Source of the DNA: Leptolyngbyaceae cyanobacterium JSC-12
GTDB lineage: Bacteria > Cyanobacteriota > Cyanobacteriia > Leptolyngbyales > Leptolyngbyaceae
Direction: 5' to 3'
NCBI GenBank assembly: GCA_000309945.1
Contig: CM001633.1
Location: 642,723-706,722 of the forward strand
DNA length: 64,000 bases
Within the stretch, counting starts at the first letter, position 1. Every line of letters starts with the position of its first letter. Made by a program: the position numbers and the translations under genes. Positions 20,752-63,045 of this stretch are shown piece after piece. The notes under the pieces are model-generated. The model was given only the letters and a program-made list of their open reading frames with translations, was not told the origin of the DNA and did not search any database.

Positions 20752-22308
20752 TTAGGTTATCGGTTTCTCCCTCAGGCTCTCGCACGAAGCTACAGCATCC
20801 TGGGTCTTAAAATCTTCCCCTAAAGCTTTCGAGACGACCCTCTCCGACGCAGCGTTGTCACTACGTTGACAAACCATCGGTTTGCCGATTGAAGATTGGT
20901 TATAGCGCGTGGTCGCCTGTTGCCAAGCCTTCATCAGGATGGTGTCCCAACCTTGACCCCAGACTTGATTGGCTAGAGTCGCATTGAAACAGGCGGTTTC
21001 AAGATCCACAAATTGACCCAAGAATCCGCTAAACAGATCCCGTTGGGCAATAATGCCGCACTCACAGCGATGCACTCGCATTGAGAGCGGCTTTTTGTGG
21101 ATTCGACCACAGAGACAACGTTGAGATAGCTTGGTTTCCCTGGTTGGAAACTCAAATACAGTGGCTGACGCAGCAGTTTCAGCTATCCGTCGCAACCGCT
21201 CAACAAACATACCGGGGGCACGTCTGCCCACCGACTTTCCGTACATCCTTTGGAAGGCTCTGTACGAAAGCTTTTCTAGCTTCACCACATTGCCCAAACT
21301 GAACACTTCATGGGCGAGTTGATTTTGCAAACTTTTTCGATGTGCCGTCAGTTGACGCTCAATCTCTGCCTTCGAGGAGCGGGTTTTGAGATAGGTCTTG
21401 GAGTGCTGCCAACGCTTTGAACCTTTCTTGACTTTCCCTTTCTTCTTACGCCCCTTAGCATCGACAAAATTAGGTTCAAAGTTGTCTGGGTTGTTGGCTC
21501 TGCGTTGCCGCTCCATTTTGCGCTGCAATCGTCGAACCTCTCTATCCTTGTTCGCCAGTTCATCGCAGAACGGTTTTAATTCGGCTTGCTCATTGCCAAC
21601 AATCGCAATGGTGGATGTGCCGATGTCCAGTCCGACAACGCCTTCTCCCATTTGATGCTTGGGCTTCTGAAAAGGCTTCCCTTCGTTGATGAGTTGTACG
21701 TAAAACAGGTTTTGTCCTCTGACCTTACGACGCACCAGACGAACGTATTTAACTGGACTATTTAGCCCGTGCAGGATGACCGGATCATTCTGATCAATCA
21801 GTGGATTCAGAACCAGTCCCGACCAATGGACTTGCTCATTCCTCCAACGAATTCCGGTTGTGTTGGTCTTCCCTTCTAGGCTATCAAGCTGATTTTTGCT
21901 CTTGAAGCGAACCTTCCTGGCTTTGCCGAAATTGACTCGCTCTGTTGCCTGAAATGCGCGAGTTGCAAGTTTCTGAGCGGTGTTGGCATCAATATGTTTG
22001 GCAATCCATCCACCTCCACCATTGCGGATTTCGGTTGCATAGGCATGGAGCGCATATTCGGTATAACCTACAAATTCCCGTGCGGTCTGAAAGGCTTTGG
22101 TTCGCTCTTTCCCTTTCGATAAGGTCTTAGCAAACTGGTACAGCTTCGATTGCTTGTAGAGTCCCAATCGCTTCACCGATTCTCCCAGGCAGGCGTTATA
22201 GAGTTGACGACCAGCTTCTAACCGAGCCAACAAGACTCGCGCCTCTGATGGACTAACCACTAGAGGAATGTCGGTTACAAAGCTGGGTGTTTTTGCTCTT
22301 TTTGCCAT
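20752..22308 (-). CDS. tnpB: TnpB-family RuvC endonuclease, 518 aa
   Basis: A long TnpB branch. RuvC-I VVGLDIGTSTIAIVG; RuvC-II VVKLEKLSYRAF; zinc ribbon TKLSQRCLCG and HRCECG; then IAQRDLFSGFLG with the third Asp. A basic segment (RRLQRKMERQRRANNPDN) precedes a long helical region. About 110 residues follow the ribbon, longer than usual TnpB. It starts 2 bases after the 82-aa gene, the third gene of a coupled operon. Confidence 0.85.
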   Translation of the reverse strand: MAKRAKTPSFVTDIPLVVSPSEARVLLARLEAGRQLYNACLGESVKRLGLYKQSKLYQFAKTLSKGKERTKAFQTAREFVGYTEYALHAYATEIRNGGGGWIAKHIDANTAQKLATRAFQATERVNFGKARKVRFKSKNQLDSLEGKTNTTGIRWRNEQVHWSGLVLNPLIDQNDPVILHGLNSPVKYVRLVRRKVRGQNLFYVQLINEGKPFQKPKHQMGEGVVGLDIGTSTIAIVGNEQAELKPFCDELANKDREVRRLQRKMERQRRANNPDNFEPNFVDAKGRKKKGKVKKGSKRWQHSKTYLKTRSSKAEIERQLTAHRKSLQNQLAHEVFSLGNVVKLEKLSYRAFQRMYGKSVGRRAPGMFVERLRRIAETAASATVFEFPTRETKLSQRCLCGRIHKKPLSMRVHRCECGIIAQRDLFSGFLGQFVDLETACFNATLANQVWGQGWDTILMKAWQQATTRYNQSSIGKPMVCQRSDNAASERVVSKALGEDFKTQDAVASCESLREKPIT

Positions 22309-46077: not shown

Positions 46078-46740
46078 ATGCCAACTGAAGAACTGCAGGA
46101 AATTCAAGAGATTATCGAGGCTTACAACAAACTAGGGCAGCTCTTGCAAAATTATCTAGGCAATGCCCCTTCTGTCCAGAATAGTAACGGAAGCGTTGAT
46201 ATTAAGGGCAGCAAAAAGGGTAGCAAGAAAGGTGACACTGGAAAATCTAACCATTTACTCACTTACCCATCTATATATATAGATGGTGCTTGCCAATCAA
46301 CCGAGGGTGGTTGGGGAGTAGTCGTTTATTTGGATGAAGGCGTTACTTTGGAGCGGGGCGGTTACGTTGCAGATACAACTTGCAATCGCATGGAATTGCA
46401 GGCAGCTATTGAAGCTGTCCGGTTGTTACAGCAACTTAACTTAGAGCTTGATTATAAAGTTCCTGTTTACACTGACAGCCAATACGTCCAGAAAGGTATC
46501 ACAATCTGGATTAATAACTGGAAGCGCAATGGTTGGCAGGGTTCATCAGGTGAGGTGAAGAATGTTAGTTTATGGGTTGAACTGGACACACTTAATAAAG
46601 AAGTGTTAGTCGATTGGAGATGGGTGAAGGGGCACATTGGTGTGCAGGGAAATGAACGTGCAGACTTCATTGCAACAGCGTTTGCTGCTCAAAAGCAGAT
46701 AACTTTACACAACAGTTTTGATTTGTCTGCTTTTGAGTGA
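46078..46740 (+). CDS. rnhA: Ribonuclease HI
   Basis: 220 aa. After a 60-residue basic/disordered N-terminus the RNase HI fold begins: IYIDGACQSTEGGWGVV (Asp), TTCNRMELQAAIEAV (Glu), PVYTDSQYVQKG (Asp), VKGHIGVQGNERADFIA (His, Asp). All catalytic residues are present. Removes RNA from RNA-DNA hybrids during plasmid replication. Isolated on the plus strand. Confidence 0.95.
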   Translation: MPTEELQEIQEIIEAYNKLGQLLQNYLGNAPSVQNSNGSVDIKGSKKGSKKGDTGKSNHLLTYPSIYIDGACQSTEGGWGVVVYLDEGVTLERGGYVADTTCNRMELQAAIEAVRLLQQLNLELDYKVPVYTDSQYVQKGITIWINNWKRNGWQGSSGEVKNVSLWVELDTLNKEVLVDWRWVKGHIGVQGNERADFIATAFAAQKQITLHNSFDLSAFE

Positions 46741-48767: not shown

Positions 48768-49676
48768 CTAGGCTTTCGCAATCGTAGCGGTACGATTACT
48801 GCACCGTGGGTTCGCACCACGCTTAGAAGTGCTTTTACGCTTGCTCTGCACTCTGCCAGAAGGTTCGGCACAAAGCATGGCCTCTAATTGGCTGTTAGCC
48901 AGTGTAAAATACTGATGCCGTCTGATAGGCTTCAGCTTGTTATGTAGCGTGTACCATGCTGACCATACGTGCTTTGCCGACTTCACATCAGCATAGGCGT
49001 TGCGGTTAGGTACACGCTCTGACAATCTCATGGCTCTACGCGCTAGAACCATTGCAGCAGCGGTATCCAAAGATAGGCCGTACTGTCTCATAAATTTCAC
49101 TAATCCAATCGTTGAACTATAGGCAGGATTGACTTTAATCAATTCAATTCCTGCCAGTTCACATTTCTGCTCCAGCAACGTGGTGAACTTGCCATAAATA
49201 AAACCTGAGAGCATCCTCGCATACCGCCTACCTTGCTCTCTCATCTGTGACTTCTTACTCTGGAAGTCCAGATTTTCAATCACAATTGGGCACCGAAAGG
49301 TTTGAGCCAGTGTTACCAGTTGCTTCGTCACATCATGCAACGTGGCGGCAATCTGACCAGATCGACGGCTATGCAAGTTGATTTTGAACTGGCCGTGATG
49401 CTTCAGGTTGCCGTCTCGATCCACGTATGTCCAACCGATGACACCTGGGTTAATATCCACTCCCAAGCAACCATACTGTTTTGGCAAGCTCTTACGGTCT
49501 GGAACTAATTCCCCGGTCTGCTCCCACTTGCGGAGAGTCTCTATTGAAACCCCTAGCAAGTCTGCTGCTACCCCTATCTTGATAAATCTGCTTTTAGGAG
49601 AATGCACCGCTAACTTGTACTTTAGACTGCATGTAATGTTCAAGCATCTCAATCCTACGGATATTGATCGCAGCAT
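48768..49676 (-). CDS. HTH (MerR/IS607-like) fused to TnpB RuvC domain
   Basis: The frame carries IKIGVAADLLGVSIETLRKW (HTH of IS607 TnpA/MerR type) and, only about 15 residues later, the RuvC half of a TnpB-related protein: CLGVDINPGVIGWTYVDRDG, IVIENLDFQSKKSQM, GLSLDTAAAMVLARRAM. D, E and D are all kept. The usual 200-250 residue N-terminal TnpB part and the recombinase domain of TnpA are both missing. Start is uncertain (ATG 49676 or GTG 49607; the frame is open to 49994). Could be a deletion relic or a new DNA-binding RuvC protein. Confidence 0.7.
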   Translation of the reverse strand: MLRSISVGLRCLNITCSLKYKLAVHSPKSRFIKIGVAADLLGVSIETLRKWEQTGELVPDRKSLPKQYGCLGVDINPGVIGWTYVDRDGNLKHHGQFKINLHSRRSGQIAATLHDVTKQLVTLAQTFRCPIVIENLDFQSKKSQMREQGRRYARMLSGFIYGKFTTLLEQKCELAGIELIKVNPAYSSTIGLVKFMRQYGLSLDTAAAMVLARRAMRLSERVPNRNAYADVKSAKHVWSAWYTLHNKLKPIRRHQYFTLANSQLEAMLCAEPSGRVQSKRKSTSKRGANPRCSNRTATIAKA

Positions 49677-49740
49677 ACCTACGTTGGAAACTGCTGAGGC
49701 GTTTATTAATGCTGAAGAGGAAGAGAGTAGGGAAGAGTGC

Positions 49741-49800
49741 ACGGCGTAGGTAAGAGTGGGAAGAGTGGGAAGAGCGGGAAGAGCAGATTGGATTGGGAAG
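49741..49800. repeat. GGGAAGAGT-type 9-bp repeats
   Basis: GTGGGAAGAGTGGGAAGAGC and flanking copies; reverse complement of the CCCACTCTT repeats inside rep at 33839. GGGAAGAGTGCACGGCGTA also occurs twice here (49730, 49796). Confidence 0.7.
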
Positions 49801-50020
49801 AGTGCACGGCGTAAACACCCTTGAAATGAAGCGTGGGAAGGGTTAAGTTTACATTCTGATGAGAGGATTAAATAGACGGCTATTACAGGGTTAAAAGTGA
49901 GCACATAATCAACGTAGAATGTGCTAGTAAAAAAATTGCCGATCGCACTCTTCCCATATAGCGCGCCCACCCCCAAACTCTTTACAATACTCACTCCCGA
50001 ATTTTCACACCCCCTCTAAA

Positions 50021-55021: not shown

Positions 55022-56122
55022 CTAAAACAAATCAAGGTCAATCTCTACAACCTCTCCTTGTATCGCTACTGCAATCGTTTTGCAGAACTCCCAGCATTGA
55101 GCAACTGTGATTGATTTCTCAACCAAGCTCAAAGATGGGTTTATGGTTGTTAGCCAACTTACGAAGTTGTCAACCATCGACTTGTGTGTGTCTTCTCCAG
55201 CAACATCAAACTGCCCTTTGGATATTAGTGCTGCCATCTCTGCAGTCAACTTAATAAAATCTTCCGGGCTTTCATAGAAGTCAGTCACTTCTCCAGACTT
55301 TGAGATGTTCCTACAGGCTGCAACTTCCTTAGCTGCTGAATAAATATCCAGTGCACAAGCACCGTTCATATCAGCAGCGTTCAGTTCTTTCTCAAACTTT
55401 GCTATCACTTCTGGGTTCGTTGTACCCAGATCCATACCCTGGATTACTGGAATCAACGTACCAAAAATGACATCGTATGCTTCCCAGCTTAGACCTCCTA
55501 GAGGTACTTCGTAAATCTCAGCAAGGATCAGGACTAAAGATTTGTTCTTTGTGAACTCTGGAGGAGTCCAATCTGGGAACAGTTTCTTTAGGTCGTCTTG
55601 CAAAGACCAGACAAGGCTCAAGTACAGATCAGCTGTTAAGAACAATCTATGCACCCAACCAACAGCCTCTTGAAACATCAAGGTGCTTCCTTCCAGCATC
55701 CCAGGCAAGCTCTTTCGAGTTTGCTTGTCTCGTAAATCAGTCGAGCATAAGTCAATGCTGAGATTCTTTGCACCCAAACCACGTTTCTTGGCTACTGCCT
55801 TTTCAGAAGGTACGTTGTAGTGGTCACCCCAATAGGCACCACCTGGTACTAGTTGATCTGAACCTGTCCTTTTAACTACGTTACTAACAACATCATCAAA
55901 TGTCGTTAACTCTAAGTTGGAGTCTCCTGCATCGCAGAATACTCTGTTATCACCATCACAGTCACCCGCATCACGTACATTACCGATCGGGCTAATGTAC
56001 GCAGTATCTTCTTCAAACCAATCTGCAAGAGGATGATCATCGTAAATGACACGAACCTTCATAATAGAAGGTGTTGTCATGGGAGCACGACTCATCATTA
56101 CTTTCTTTCCGTCTAAACTCAT
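55022..56122 (-). CDS. DxDGD protein, candidate RNA polymerase beta-prime-like half
   Basis: 366 aa from MSLDGKKVMMSRAPMTTP; GGAGG lies 5 bases upstream, so this start beats the longer frame. The key stretch is VMMSRAPMTTPSIMKVRVI, then HPLADWFEEDTAYISPIG and VRDAGDCDGDNRVFC. In two-barrel RNA polymerases (YonO, QDE-1/RDR) the order is R-x-P ... VRVL ... (D)C-V-F-P-x-G ... (S)DxDGD, where the three Asp bind catalytic Mg. The remaining 300 residues are helical, as in the beta-prime-like C-terminus. Identification is by motif and order only. Confidence 0.5.
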   Translation of the reverse strand: MSLDGKKVMMSRAPMTTPSIMKVRVIYDDHPLADWFEEDTAYISPIGNVRDAGDCDGDNRVFCDAGDSNLELTTFDDVVSNVVKRTGSDQLVPGGAYWGDHYNVPSEKAVAKKRGLGAKNLSIDLCSTDLRDKQTRKSLPGMLEGSTLMFQEAVGWVHRLFLTADLYLSLVWSLQDDLKKLFPDWTPPEFTKNKSLVLILAEIYEVPLGGLSWEAYDVIFGTLIPVIQGMDLGTTNPEVIAKFEKELNAADMNGACALDIYSAAKEVAACRNISKSGEVTDFYESPEDFIKLTAEMAALISKGQFDVAGEDTHKSMVDNFVSWLTTINPSLSLVEKSITVAQCWEFCKTIAVAIQGEVVEIDLDLF

Positions 56123-56203
56123 ATGTCCTCCAAGAAAATGAGTAAGCGGAGCCAAACTGACTCCGCTCGGTGTACGACGTGATATTGGTCATTGAACTGT
56201 TAC

Positions 56204-59200
56204 TTAACTGAAAACTCGTTCCATCAAAGAATGAACCGAGTTCTTACGAGCAGAATCCCGCACCCACACTTCATTTACAGGGATACCTGGTAACGCCATC
56301 GTCTTTGCCTGCATGGACATGCGGCAGAACGCAGCAGATTTTACCAAAGCACCACTCTCAGTCAACTTCGTAAGAGCACCCTTTGCGCGACCCGCAAGCT
56401 GTAGATATTCAGGACTATTCGTTGCAGCACCGTTGATGTATTGAACAACCAGTTGAGTGATCAGGTCACTCATTCCATCTACACTTGCAAAATCTGTATT
56501 TGCATCCTGTGCTGCCACAGCGGGTAGGTACACACTGAAGTGCCCCTTAATGCCACAGCAAACACTGAATACACAATTTCTAAACATTGGAGCCAGAAGT
56601 TTCAACAGGTTACCTGCATTAACCGGGTTATTAACCAGGTCACGAAGCTCCTCGGTTTGCAGCAGACTAGCTGCATTTGAGTCGCCTAGCATATACATTG
56701 GTAAATCGTTTCCACCTTTGGCTTTGATGGTTTGATTCTTTGCCATCGCAAAGAATACAGCAGATTTGTGGACCTGCTTGAACCCATCCTTTACTAGTCG
56801 TTGCGCAAACGCAGGATCTTCTGTCTCAACAGCACGGGCTACTCCAGCCATCAAAGGTGTTTGTCCTACACTTGCACGAACACTTGACAACTCAGCTTTC
56901 ACTGGTTGCCACACTGCACCCGTCTTATTTGTCCCTGCATAAGACCAAGCACGTTGTACAAAATACTCCACACCTTCAACAGTGTAAAACACAAGTACGT
57001 TGGTCTTATGGTTTTCAATGCACCCGTCAGCATAAACTTCAATGCTTTCTGCATTACTTGGGATGGCATACCCTACAGAAGTAGGTTCAACCGTTTCCCA
57101 ACCTTTTGCACCCTTGTACATTTTCTTCAGCACAGTAGTCCACTCTGCAGAAGCGTCTGCATGTCTGAACCAAATTGCGCGTCCGAACTTGGCTTCAAAC
57201 CAGTTGATTAGCTGCTGGTATTTACCCATTACAGCCAGAACTGGTGACCACTCCAGATAATTCGCACCCTCAACCCCGACTAAAGAGTTACACTCTTCAA
57301 TCAGTTTCAAACCTTCTGCATCGGCATTATTAATTGCAGTGCATACTGCAACATCTGCGATAGATTGCACCAGGTCTAGCCACTTATTTGTGTCTGCAAA
57401 GAATACAGACCGTGCATTCAACTCTGCGTTGAGGTTGTTGTGAACAACGTCAGGTGTGTAGCGGGAAAGCATACACTTGATATTGTTCCGACCTTTGATT
57501 TGATGTTCTCTAGTTTGTGTCACTAACACAACTTGCAGAGTGGTGCGGTTCCCTGCAACTTTAGCCAACCGCCAGCGGATCTCTAGCAAGTAAGCATCAG
57601 GAGTGTTATTTGTGATGGTGTGTCTAAAACAACCCTCTTCTGTAATGTAAGGTACATCACAGATAGGTTCCTTATCAGCAATCCGCAATGGTTGTTCCAT
57701 GCGAATCACTTGCCAGCCTCTACGTTCAAATTGCTGACCACCAACCAATGACACTACAGCACCCGCTAATTCCTCCTCCTTAATTACTCCTGGTACATTA
57801 GGTTGTACCGTTTGCGTATGTTTGACTAACAGTGTTGGTCCTTCACCCCAGTAAACTGCCATACCAGCAGGAAAAGTGGCATGAGGTGAAACTACTGCTT
57901 CCACAACCCAGTTATTACTTGATTCAACAGATTGACCAAAGCGTTTCAAGCCTCTGGTACTTCCTCCTTCCAGCAAACCAACACAAGCTGCGTCCATTGC
58001 TGTACGCTTAATCAGCTTGGCTAATTTAGAAGACAACCCGATAATTAGATGCTGAGAAGCAGTCTTAATAACCTCCTCGTCAGAACCACTCAAACCAAAC
58101 TGTTGACGGGCATATTCTGCAATTGCAGCTTCAGTGTTGTCAGTTAGCTGACTTAGCACTTCCCGCACAAACTGCTCACGCAGCTCGCTTGGTACGTGCT
58201 TTGCTTGGATGCAACTGCGACGACCATCGATAAACTGACCCCGTGGCATACGAACTAAGTTGAACCCTAACAAAGCACTACGGTCCACAACATGCTTTGC
58301 AGGTAACTTTGCACCCTTTATTTGGACACCGTTCTTCTCTACATCACCAAGACTGGTTACTCCAATCTCACGGTTGTAAATAACTTTGGTGTTCCATTCA
58401 CCGTCTACTTGATACCGAGCAAACCCAAAGGGCATATCGGTTGCAGATAATCTGGTGACCGTAACATAACGGTCGTAGTAAGTGCGATCGCCATCATAGG
58501 CTTGCGCTTCATCATCTGACTGCACTGGCAGCTCAACGAACATTTTCTTAGATACCAACTGACCCAATTCAGGAACAGGAGCAGTTAGATATTTTGCACC
58601 CAACATGACCAATCCGTACAGGAATGTGCCATAGCTATTAACTAAGGACATGTCTTCTGCAGGAATGCGTACTCCACGACCACGACCAGTCAGGCTGCTA
58701 ACCAACAGCATGTTATTAAACCGTAGGTTACGGCTAACTTCAAACACGCCATCCTTAGCAGTGACTCGGAATTCGTACTCGTCGATCCACACGCTGAAAC
58801 CATCTTCTCCGGTGGCAGACACTTGAATAGGTGAGACACCACCTTTACAGAGTGCTCCTGCTAACCAATCAATTACAACTGCAACGTCAGCTTGTGTTGC
58901 ATTGAAATCAAAACAACGGGTCCAGTTGTGATCGACGTATACGATGCGGTCTTGCACCCCAAACACTTGCTCAATCACTGGACGAGCAAGTGCATAAGTT
59001 AATAACTTGAACTCTACTCCTAAGTTGGCGTAAACACCTGTCAAGAGAGCTTGACGTACACACCATTCTTCTAGCGCGTGTGTGTGAGCTAACCTCTTAA
59101 CAATTTCACCGTCCTTAATCAAAGAACGGTATTGAGACATTGCAGTACCCAATACAGAGGGTTGTTGTACAAACCGACCGTATTGTTTCAGCACGTCAAG

Positions 59201-59521
59201 TCCTGCAATGTGCAGACTGTTGTTACGGGTGTGATCTGCAAAGTAGAACACTTCATCCAGCTCAATAGGAAAAGTAAGTTGAGCTGTTTGTCTTAAACGC
59301 AAATAACACCATGCAGCAAACAAAGAAGCTTGCACAGAGCTTACAGCGTTAATAACGTTGTTGCTCAGAATACGACCAGCAAGCTTCTCACCCATAACAG
59401 CGGTAATAGCTTCACCAGGTGTGAGCTTACTTACAGCTGCGATATTGAATTGTGTGCGACCTTTCATAGCGTAGAAAGGATCAGCAAGTACGTTCCAGTT
59501 GTTGTTCAATTGTAAATCCAT
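56204..59521 (-). CDS. 1105-aa protein, candidate beta-like half of split RNA polymerase
   Basis: Start MDLQLNNNWNVLADPF with CTTGGAGG 7 bases upstream (the longer frame begins at TTG). No family is recognised with certainty. It precedes the DxDGD gene by 81 bases. HQIKGRNNIKCMLSRYTPDV (about residues 665-685) recalls the beta 'GDKxxxRHGxKG...PD' lysine loop: G-R-x-x-x-K is kept. KHVVDRSALLGFNLVRMPRG resembles another conserved stretch. N-terminal third is helical. It could equally be a large structural or replication protein. Confidence 0.45.
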   Translation of the reverse strand: MDLQLNNNWNVLADPFYAMKGRTQFNIAAVSKLTPGEAITAVMGEKLAGRILSNNVINAVSSVQASLFAAWCYLRLRQTAQLTFPIELDEVFYFADHTRNNSLHIAGLDVLKQYGRFVQQPSVLGTAMSQYRSLIKDGEIVKRLAHTHALEEWCVRQALLTGVYANLGVEFKLLTYALARPVIEQVFGVQDRIVYVDHNWTRCFDFNATQADVAVVIDWLAGALCKGGVSPIQVSATGEDGFSVWIDEYEFRVTAKDGVFEVSRNLRFNNMLLVSSLTGRGRGVRIPAEDMSLVNSYGTFLYGLVMLGAKYLTAPVPELGQLVSKKMFVELPVQSDDEAQAYDGDRTYYDRYVTVTRLSATDMPFGFARYQVDGEWNTKVIYNREIGVTSLGDVEKNGVQIKGAKLPAKHVVDRSALLGFNLVRMPRGQFIDGRRSCIQAKHVPSELREQFVREVLSQLTDNTEAAIAEYARQQFGLSGSDEEVIKTASQHLIIGLSSKLAKLIKRTAMDAACVGLLEGGSTRGLKRFGQSVESSNNWVVEAVVSPHATFPAGMAVYWGEGPTLLVKHTQTVQPNVPGVIKEEELAGAVVSLVGGQQFERRGWQVIRMEQPLRIADKEPICDVPYITEEGCFRHTITNNTPDAYLLEIRWRLAKVAGNRTTLQVVLVTQTREHQIKGRNNIKCMLSRYTPDVVHNNLNAELNARSVFFADTNKWLDLVQSIADVAVCTAINNADAEGLKLIEECNSLVGVEGANYLEWSPVLAVMGKYQQLINWFEAKFGRAIWFRHADASAEWTTVLKKMYKGAKGWETVEPTSVGYAIPSNAESIEVYADGCIENHKTNVLVFYTVEGVEYFVQRAWSYAGTNKTGAVWQPVKAELSSVRASVGQTPLMAGVARAVETEDPAFAQRLVKDGFKQVHKSAVFFAMAKNQTIKAKGGNDLPMYMLGDSNAASLLQTEELRDLVNNPVNAGNLLKLLAPMFRNCVFSVCCGIKGHFSVYLPAVAAQDANTDFASVDGMSDLITQLVVQYINGAATNSPEYLQLAGRAKGALTKLTESGALVKSAAFCRMSMQAKTMALPGIPVNEVWVRDSARKNSVHSLMERVFS

Positions 59522-62068: not shown

Positions 62069-62735
62069 CTAGCAGTGATAAAGGTAGCCAAACCAAGTTT
62101 GGAGTAGTTCGTCTAAACTTGCAGTAACCATTTTGTGTACTGATTTCACGTCTGCATCTGCATTAATTCGGATGATTGCCCTGGGATACTGTTCGTGCAA
62201 CTGCTTATAGACAGCTCGAACTTTTTCGTGAAAGAGTAATGATTCTTCGTCGAAATGATTGTTTTGGACTCTGACTTTAAGACGCTCTAGCGCTATTTGT
62301 GGAGACACGTCTAACCATATAGTAGTACTCGGTAATACTCCTTGCACACTAAAGTTGTTTAACCAATTCAAAATACCCATATTAAACCCACGACCGCCCC
62401 CCCTGATATGCAAGAGTGGAGTCGATAAACCGATCGCACAGTACCAGATTTCCCTTTATTAGTTCAGGTTTAATAACTCTTGAAACATGCTCAGCACGGT
62501 CAGCTTGGTAAAGCAACAACTCTGCGTGGGTGGATAGCTTATTGTTCAGTAGTAGTGAATGCAACTCTTTACCTAACTCAGTACCACCTGGCTCTCTTGT
62601 TACGATAATCTTCTTCAAACCCTTTTCTATTTTCTCTTTCCAACCACTGGTTTCTAACCACTGCACTAGCATGATAAGTTGTGTGGTTTTTCCAGAACCA
62701 TCTATTCCTTCAAAGGTTACTAACTTTCCGTTCAT
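62069..62735 (-). pseudogene. tmk: Thymidylate kinase, one-base frameshift
   Basis: First frame from [20 protein letters not shown] (P-loop), [33 protein letters not shown]. Second frame continues [14 protein letters not shown] and PSTTIWLDVSPQIAL. The join is in a run of seven G (minus strand; 62397-62403); six would restore the frame. All TMK motifs are intact, so this is a recent mutation, an error, or slippage. The enzyme makes dTDP from dTMP. Confidence 0.85.
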
Positions 62736-62742
62736 AAAATTC

Positions 62743-63045
62743 CTAATCAATACTAATTCCACGGCAGCGCGTGGGGATTCCGTAACTAAATGTTGGTCTT
62801 GCTAAAATGAATGCATCAAGCACCAGTACTTTACAATCCCACGGCAAAATAACGGATCGACCGTGACTTACAGTACTAAACCGACACGTTTGAGTTTCTT
62901 GATCAAGCTTAATAAAGGGTATCTCTACCCAAATTTCTTTCTCTTCAAATGCCTGCTCCATCCATTGAGAAGGTACCTTAGCTTTTATAGGAGTTTGCAT
63001 ACTCGCATGTAACTCCAAATCACGTAAAGTTATTGGTTGTGTCAT
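62743..63045 (-). CDS. Hypothetical protein, 100 aa
   Basis: Begins [20 protein letters not shown]. Its ATG overlaps the stop of the 74-aa gene (ATGA). Middle segment [20 protein letters not shown]; unrecognised. Confidence 0.5.

Follow-up and report, generated by a model that had tools for sequence, protein, structure and literature searches.

The locus lies in a 64,000-nucleotide stretch of the genome of Leptolyngbyaceae cyanobacterium JSC-12, called the window here, which corresponds to positions 642723–706722 of a 5.53-Mb chromosome (C1) bearing phycobilisome genes. Two open reading frames of 1105 and 366 aa follow each other in the same frame on the minus strand, separated by 84 nt that include the stop codon of the first (56204–56206). 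For the larger of the two, an alternative start at a TTG (59533) would give 1109 aa. Table 1 lists these genes with their motifs and neighbours.

Table 1. Genes and sequence features at the locus. Coordinates are those of the window unless C1 (chromosome) or L006 is given.
Feature	Position	Strand	Description
PIF1/Dda-like helicase, 625 aa	53075..54952	(-)	Next downstream gene in both viruses; 42% identity to the gene of the orthologous virus
Probable small polymerase piece, 366 aa	55022..56122, ATG 56122	(-)	ORF; putative remainder of the DxDGD barrel and downstream helical part
DCDGD, putative catalytic metal-binding motif	55949..55963	(-)	Aligns with QDE-1 DYDGD and orthologue GDFDGD
R-A-P, putative second strand	56081..56089	(-)	Aligns with QDE-1 R-S-P
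Gene-splitting in-frame insertion, 84 nt	56123..56206	(-)	TAA, TGA five codons later, hairpin and ribosome-binding site; absent from the orthologue
GGAGG, putative ribosome-binding site of the 366-aa gene	56127..56131	(-)	Four bases upstream of the ATG
11-bp hairpin in the insertion	56144..56168	(-)	Minimum free energy of a 95-nt stretch -25.4 kcal/mol, z-score -2.6
ALPGIPVNEVWVRDSARKNSVHSLMERVFS, putative first strand of the DxDGD barrel and next helix	56207..56296	(-)	End of the large protein; runs into the second strand in the orthologue
Probable large polymerase piece, 1105 aa	56204..59521, ATG 59521	(-)	ORF; N-terminal region, presumed lysine barrel, putative first strand of the DxDGD barrel
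IKGRNNIK, candidate lysine loop	57476..57499	(-)	Residues 679-686 of the 1109-aa reading; motif evidence only
Function-unassigned protein, 394 aa	59558..60742	(-)	Upstream gene in both viruses; 34% identity to the gene of the orthologous virus
Late-strand protein, 3311 aa	C1:708725-718660, L006:2725-12660	(+)	Just past the window; LGDFDGD from residue 2271

A provirus of roughly 206 kb, a relative of Microcystis phage Ma-LMM01, contains the window. Its major capsid protein is 30% identical to that of Ma-LMM01 over 93% of its length (E=1e-48), and its tail sheath and portal proteins match PHROGs with E=6e-57 and E=1.6e-13, respectively; since capsid, sheath and portal are homologous, we group the provirus with the Ma-LMM01 cyanomyoviruses. 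IMG/VR holds the region as a provirus of 195 kb. Judged from its genes, the element reaches somewhat beyond that call, from about 607.4 to 813.9 kb of C1, with a weak integrase match at its left end, parA-like genes nearby, and znuA and a zinc-type ABC permease gene apparently flanking it on the outside left and right. An earlier note on this DNA had envisaged a replicon with its own enzyme; a separate replicon is not borne out, and the genes instead belong to an element integrated in the chromosome. Elsewhere in the provirus we observed an RNase H gene (window 46078–46740, plus strand; Pfam E=1.8e-35), the start of a MerR-type resolvase fused to a TnpB/Cas12f-like TNB stretch, the remains of an IS607-type transposon (window 48768–49994, minus strand), and a 1523-aa ribonucleotide reductase-like protein with two intein-like insertions recognised by eye (C1:775613–780184, minus strand). 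A 5284-aa protein (C1:755464–771318, plus strand) is kept at 4700 aa in the related virus described below; it is probably the tape measure, to judge from its place and size, and PLD-like HxK motifs can be picked out by eye at its N terminus.

The neighbouring genes had been read as a Pif1-type helicase, a PD-(D/E)XK nuclease and a thymidylate kinase. The helicase was confirmed, with matches to AAA_30/PIF1 and to the PHROG Dda-like helicase (E=8.6e-36). Pfam also recognises a thymidylate kinase (Thymidylate_kin), but its sequence falls into two overlapping ORFs in different frames (window 62069–62762, minus strand) and is thus a frameshifted gene. The nuclease had been assigned by eye only, and here Pfam yields just a sub-threshold match to DUF4143.

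As had been claimed, the 366-aa protein contains R-A-P, KVRVI, YISPIG and DAGDCDGD, all present and in that order. The pattern R.P.{25,60}GD.DGD arose by chance in 9 of 200,000 shuffles of this protein, and scans of large collections also retrieve it, in its bare form, from low-complexity ORFs of no relation. Counting against the assignment, a cysteine stands in the middle of DCDGD; this position of DxDGD is usually taken by a bulky residue (PMC7598289).

Queried directly, neither window protein found a relative in Pfam, PHROGs, the PDB, phages, plasmids, 58 related genomes or GTDB contigs. Two weak genome matches were rejected as not being genes of this kind. Scanning IMG/VR with a DNA pattern that encodes R-[AT]-P and, 38 residues on, GDxDGD gave matches in 27 contigs, among which a single true relative was found apart from the provirus itself, the syntenic virus UViG_3300043540_000321 (G390, 195 kb). 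This virus encodes the same protein as one chain of 1442 aa, which aligns with the large window protein along its length (E=4.9e-250); with the window pair, translated across its stops, it shares 44% identity. Its residues 1–1091 correspond to the large piece (41.5%) and residues 1095–1433 to the small piece (46%). More than 60 further provirus ORFs match G390, including the gene before the polymerase and the helicase after it. Final viral and genome scans added no member to the family. The contig that bears a related capsid gene in another cyanobacterial genome (G167) encodes no DxDGD protein.

The orthologue continues without a gap across the junction of the two window proteins, between ERVFS and MSLDG, with 38 of 60 residues identical. 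Sequencing error was rejected as the cause of the split because the break is an in-frame insertion of 84 nt and not a frameshift. No second copy of the insertion was found in a 224-kb stretch. Its hairpin, together with the SD-like sequence and the occurrence of AGT both directly before the stop and directly after the ATG, is reminiscent of programmed bypassing (cf. T4 gene 60), by which ribosomes would skip the gap and make one chain. An ordinary GGAGG–ATG start accounts for the second gene, however, and a codon match at a single place, with no second case, may be chance, so that we consider bypassing highly improbable.

More weight has to be given to the possibility that the insertion destroyed a former two-barrel polymerase and left the two frames as relics of a gene that no longer works, in a prophage undergoing decay. 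The adjacent thymidylate kinase in two frames is a sign of possible decay, the window contains transposon remains, and no second virus carrying the split was found among the viral and genome collections scanned, so the split may be a recent accident. Against this, the frames are intact on both sides, the insertion is a multiple of three, GGAGG stands at a workable distance from the ATG and the catalytic motif is retained. The two halves (46% and 41.5% identical to G390) are also as conserved as other viral genes such as those for the helicase (42%) and the 3311-aa protein (44%), though such values are compatible with a very recent loss; GC and GC3 are alike for both halves. We therefore judge a dead gene unlikely, if still worth keeping in mind, and infer that both halves are functional.

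The pair had been proposed to carry its two barrels on separate polypeptides. The gene is indeed split, but the break falls within the DxDGD barrel itself, after strand 1 and before strand 2 as assigned from an alignment with QDE-1 and relatives. The arrangement is not one barrel per chain because, in the orthologue, a single domain takes in the equivalents of the large protein's 30 C-terminal residues and of the small protein's 60 N-terminal ones. The large protein would thus comprise the presumed lysine barrel together with strand 1 of the catalytic barrel, and the small protein the rest.

For the catalytic domain we used a hand-chosen segment of the orthologue (residues 1045–1185) that covers both the junction and DxDGD in searches of Pfam and the PDB. 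Its sole Pfam match was RdRP, a marginal one (E=0.0039; 16.4 bits against a curated cut-off of 23.8), starting at the segment equivalent to ALPGIPVNEVWVRDSARKNSVHSLMERVFS; with the whole 1442-aa orthologue the same family matched at E=0.13. Among 177,635 PDB sequences the top three were all QDE-1, again marginally (E=0.056–0.12, over 56 residues), in an alignment running from KVLMSRAPMTNPS to NGGDFDGD. QDE-1 still came first in the PDB when the window fragments were added to the query (E=0.21). For the equivalent segment of a protein of Microcoleus phage My-WqHQDG a weak match to CDC48_N was obtained (E=0.12), a domain that we take to be a double-psi barrel itself. R-x-P precedes DxDGD in the window pair, in the orthologue, in the Ma-LMM01 protein MAP_064 and in the Microcoleus phage protein. 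AlphaFold models, from jobs with both barrels and with one, had a pLDDT of about 36 and were unusable for fold comparison.

That these proteins are no polymerase at all, with DxDGD a chance occurrence or a calcium-binding motif, would fit with the absence of a significant database match for either window protein and with the presence of DxDGD in repeat proteins of the same region. Yet the best matches, QDE-1 and RdRP, extend over the whole stretch of strand, R-x-P, strand and GDxDGD, beyond DxDGD alone, and no Pfam family was matched by the controls, one of them a reversed sequence and two shuffled with RAP and GDFDGD left in position; this reading seems to us quite improbable. Weak scores are typical of the superfamily, since gp96, gp64 and gp66, phage two-barrel enzymes of proven activity, matched no polymerase family in the same test either, and PMC10770324 likewise describes stronger matches as wanting. 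The QDE-1 and RdRP matches, weak and marginal as they are, are specific and consistent with each other. The likeness to YonO/QDE-1/RDR polymerases suggested in the earlier note is thereby retained for the catalytic domain, where the best matches of the orthologue are QDE-1 and RdRP; the window proteins alone match nothing significantly. From their sequences, the window pair is probably a divergent two-barrel RNA polymerase, distantly QDE-1-like.

The other barrel is less readily recognised. GRNNIK had been put forward as its lysine loop, and the basic residues of IKGRNNIK are kept in the orthologue (IKARNGVK), but profile searches for the lysine barrel gave no match in support. Two of the three MAFFT modes align it, in one column, with LKLRGLGKK of MAP_064 and AKLRGLGIK of the Microcoleus phage protein. 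In QDE-1 the corresponding barrel is described as essentially without detectable sequence conservation (PMC1750930). On the motif evidence, GRNNIK is a plausible lysine loop.

The order and spacing of strand, R-x-P, strand and GGDxDGD in the catalytic barrel are those of QDE-1 and the cellular RDR enzymes (Pfam PF05183), and the orthologue is, like them, a single chain; unlike them, the window copy is in two polypeptides, the remainder cannot be aligned and barrel 1 is unrecognised. As a phage-borne enzyme of presumed two-barrel type it resembles YonO, P23-45 gp64/gp96 and crAss-like gp66, and the R-x-P to DxDGD layout is seen directly in gp64 and gp96. It differs from these phage enzymes in lacking detectable sequence similarity (a profile built from gp96/gp64 did not find the pair) and in its split, lying in two genes where the YonO/QDE-1-type enzymes are single chains. 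As in phiKZ/AR9-type jumbo phages, the polymerase would be spread over several polypeptides, with two sets per virus, but there the beta-prime subunit is split after the catalytic barrel (PMC7598289), whereas here the split is inside it. Unlike the jumbo-phage subunits, the window proteins gave no match to the Pfam Rpb families.

A second DxDGD protein, of 3311 aa, is encoded on the opposite strand of the same provirus, about 6.5 kb away and in divergent orientation to the polymerase pair. It is kept in three viruses (3395 aa and 44% identity in G390). Its N-terminal domain is PLD-like (Pfam PLDc_2, E=6.5e-6, just under the cut-off), and no polymerase family was matched. Some viruses carry two polymerases (PMC10770324). 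With P23-45 as a model, which likewise has two polymerase candidates in one virus, the motif, size and position of the 3311-aa protein make it a candidate virion polymerase; it differs from the single-chain phage enzymes above in being a separate protein and no established tape measure.

In Ma-LMM01, the likely counterparts of the two DxDGD proteins are MAP_064 and MAP_080, which lie about 9 kb apart. MAP_080 (3562 aa) is a BLAST homologue of the 3311-aa protein across the LGDFDGD region (E=9e-15). MAP_064 (L021:43811–48832) is, unlike the window pair, one chain (1673 aa), and has LKLRGLGKK, RTPM and GDADGD in order, that is, K-RGLG-K, R-T-P and GDADGD arranged as in the pair. It has no significant sequence similarity to the pair; since profile searches likewise show no significant link, it is by motif order and neighbourhood that the two are taken to correspond. 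Between MAP_064 and the Microcoleus phage protein the relationship is clear (E=2e-14). The N-terminal third of MAP_064 contains HELVHH, a zincin-like protease motif that precedes the polymerase-like part and where Pfam finds nothing. The Microcoleus phage protein, polymerase-like and 3410 aa long, includes a NADAR domain (L044, about 20900–21500; Pfam E=1.3e-20) downstream of its GDTDGD, and a profile including this protein retrieved only the inserted domain.

Taken together, we estimate with a probability of roughly two in three that the two genes encode pieces of one functional two-barrel RNA polymerase that transcribes the genes of this integrated, Ma-LMM01-related cyanomyovirus. The ancestral gene would have encoded a single chain of about 1440 aa, in which the presumed lysine barrel preceded the DxDGD barrel; the insertion, with its two stops, hairpin and ribosome-binding site, would then have divided this chain inside the DxDGD barrel. 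On one mRNA, ribosomes would terminate the large piece and re-initiate the small piece 84 nt further on. The pieces would then fold together, the large protein contributing strand 1 of the catalytic barrel and the small protein its remaining strands, which bear the three aspartates. The polymerase is most likely the non-virion transcriptase of the virus; encoded on what would be the early strand and perhaps made early, it may, once the virus has infected a cell or been induced, transcribe its genes from DNA, the 3311-aa protein being the candidate for the virion enzyme.

Such an enzyme might instead make replication primers or copy RNA, as its best matches are RNA-dependent polymerases and a Dda/PIF1-like helicase adjoins the gene in both viruses. 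However, YonO, gp64, gp66 and the jumbo-phage enzymes transcribe DNA (PMC5467207, PMC10770324, PMC7598289), and Ma-LMM01 encodes a separate putative DNA primase, which makes a task other than transcription of viral genes improbable.

Phage two-barrel polymerases, virion/non-virion pairs and split subunits are already known (PMC7598289, PMC10770324, PMC7824862), and some Firmicutes and Cyanobacteria are reported to have genes for non-canonical RNA polymerases in their prophages and in what are likely mobile elements (PMC7598289). Within the literature searched, the break inside the catalytic barrel and the presence of such genes in Ma-LMM01-type phages are new, although the supplementary survey of PMC10770324 may already list some of these genes. 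We lean, if only slightly, towards the full proposal of a working polymerase whose catalytic double-psi barrel is built from two polypeptides by way of a small insertion, in a group believed to be free of RNA polymerase.

Ma-LMM01 and MaMV-DH01 are held to depend on host transcription throughout (PMC5780444, PMC9927357), the genome having been reported to be without an RNA polymerase (PMC9927357) and phages of the Ma-LMM01 type to use host sigma-70-type promoters throughout (PMC5780444). If proteins of the MAP_064 and MAP_080 type are two-barrel polymerases, this host-transcription-only view would need revision, and PHROGs 30979 and 31006, to which they respectively belong and which are both function-unassigned, would gain a function. 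The separation of the barrels onto subunits is a step proposed from the QDE-1 structure (PMC1750930), and a break inside a barrel would bear on the route by which cellular RNA polymerase came to have its two barrels on separate subunits.
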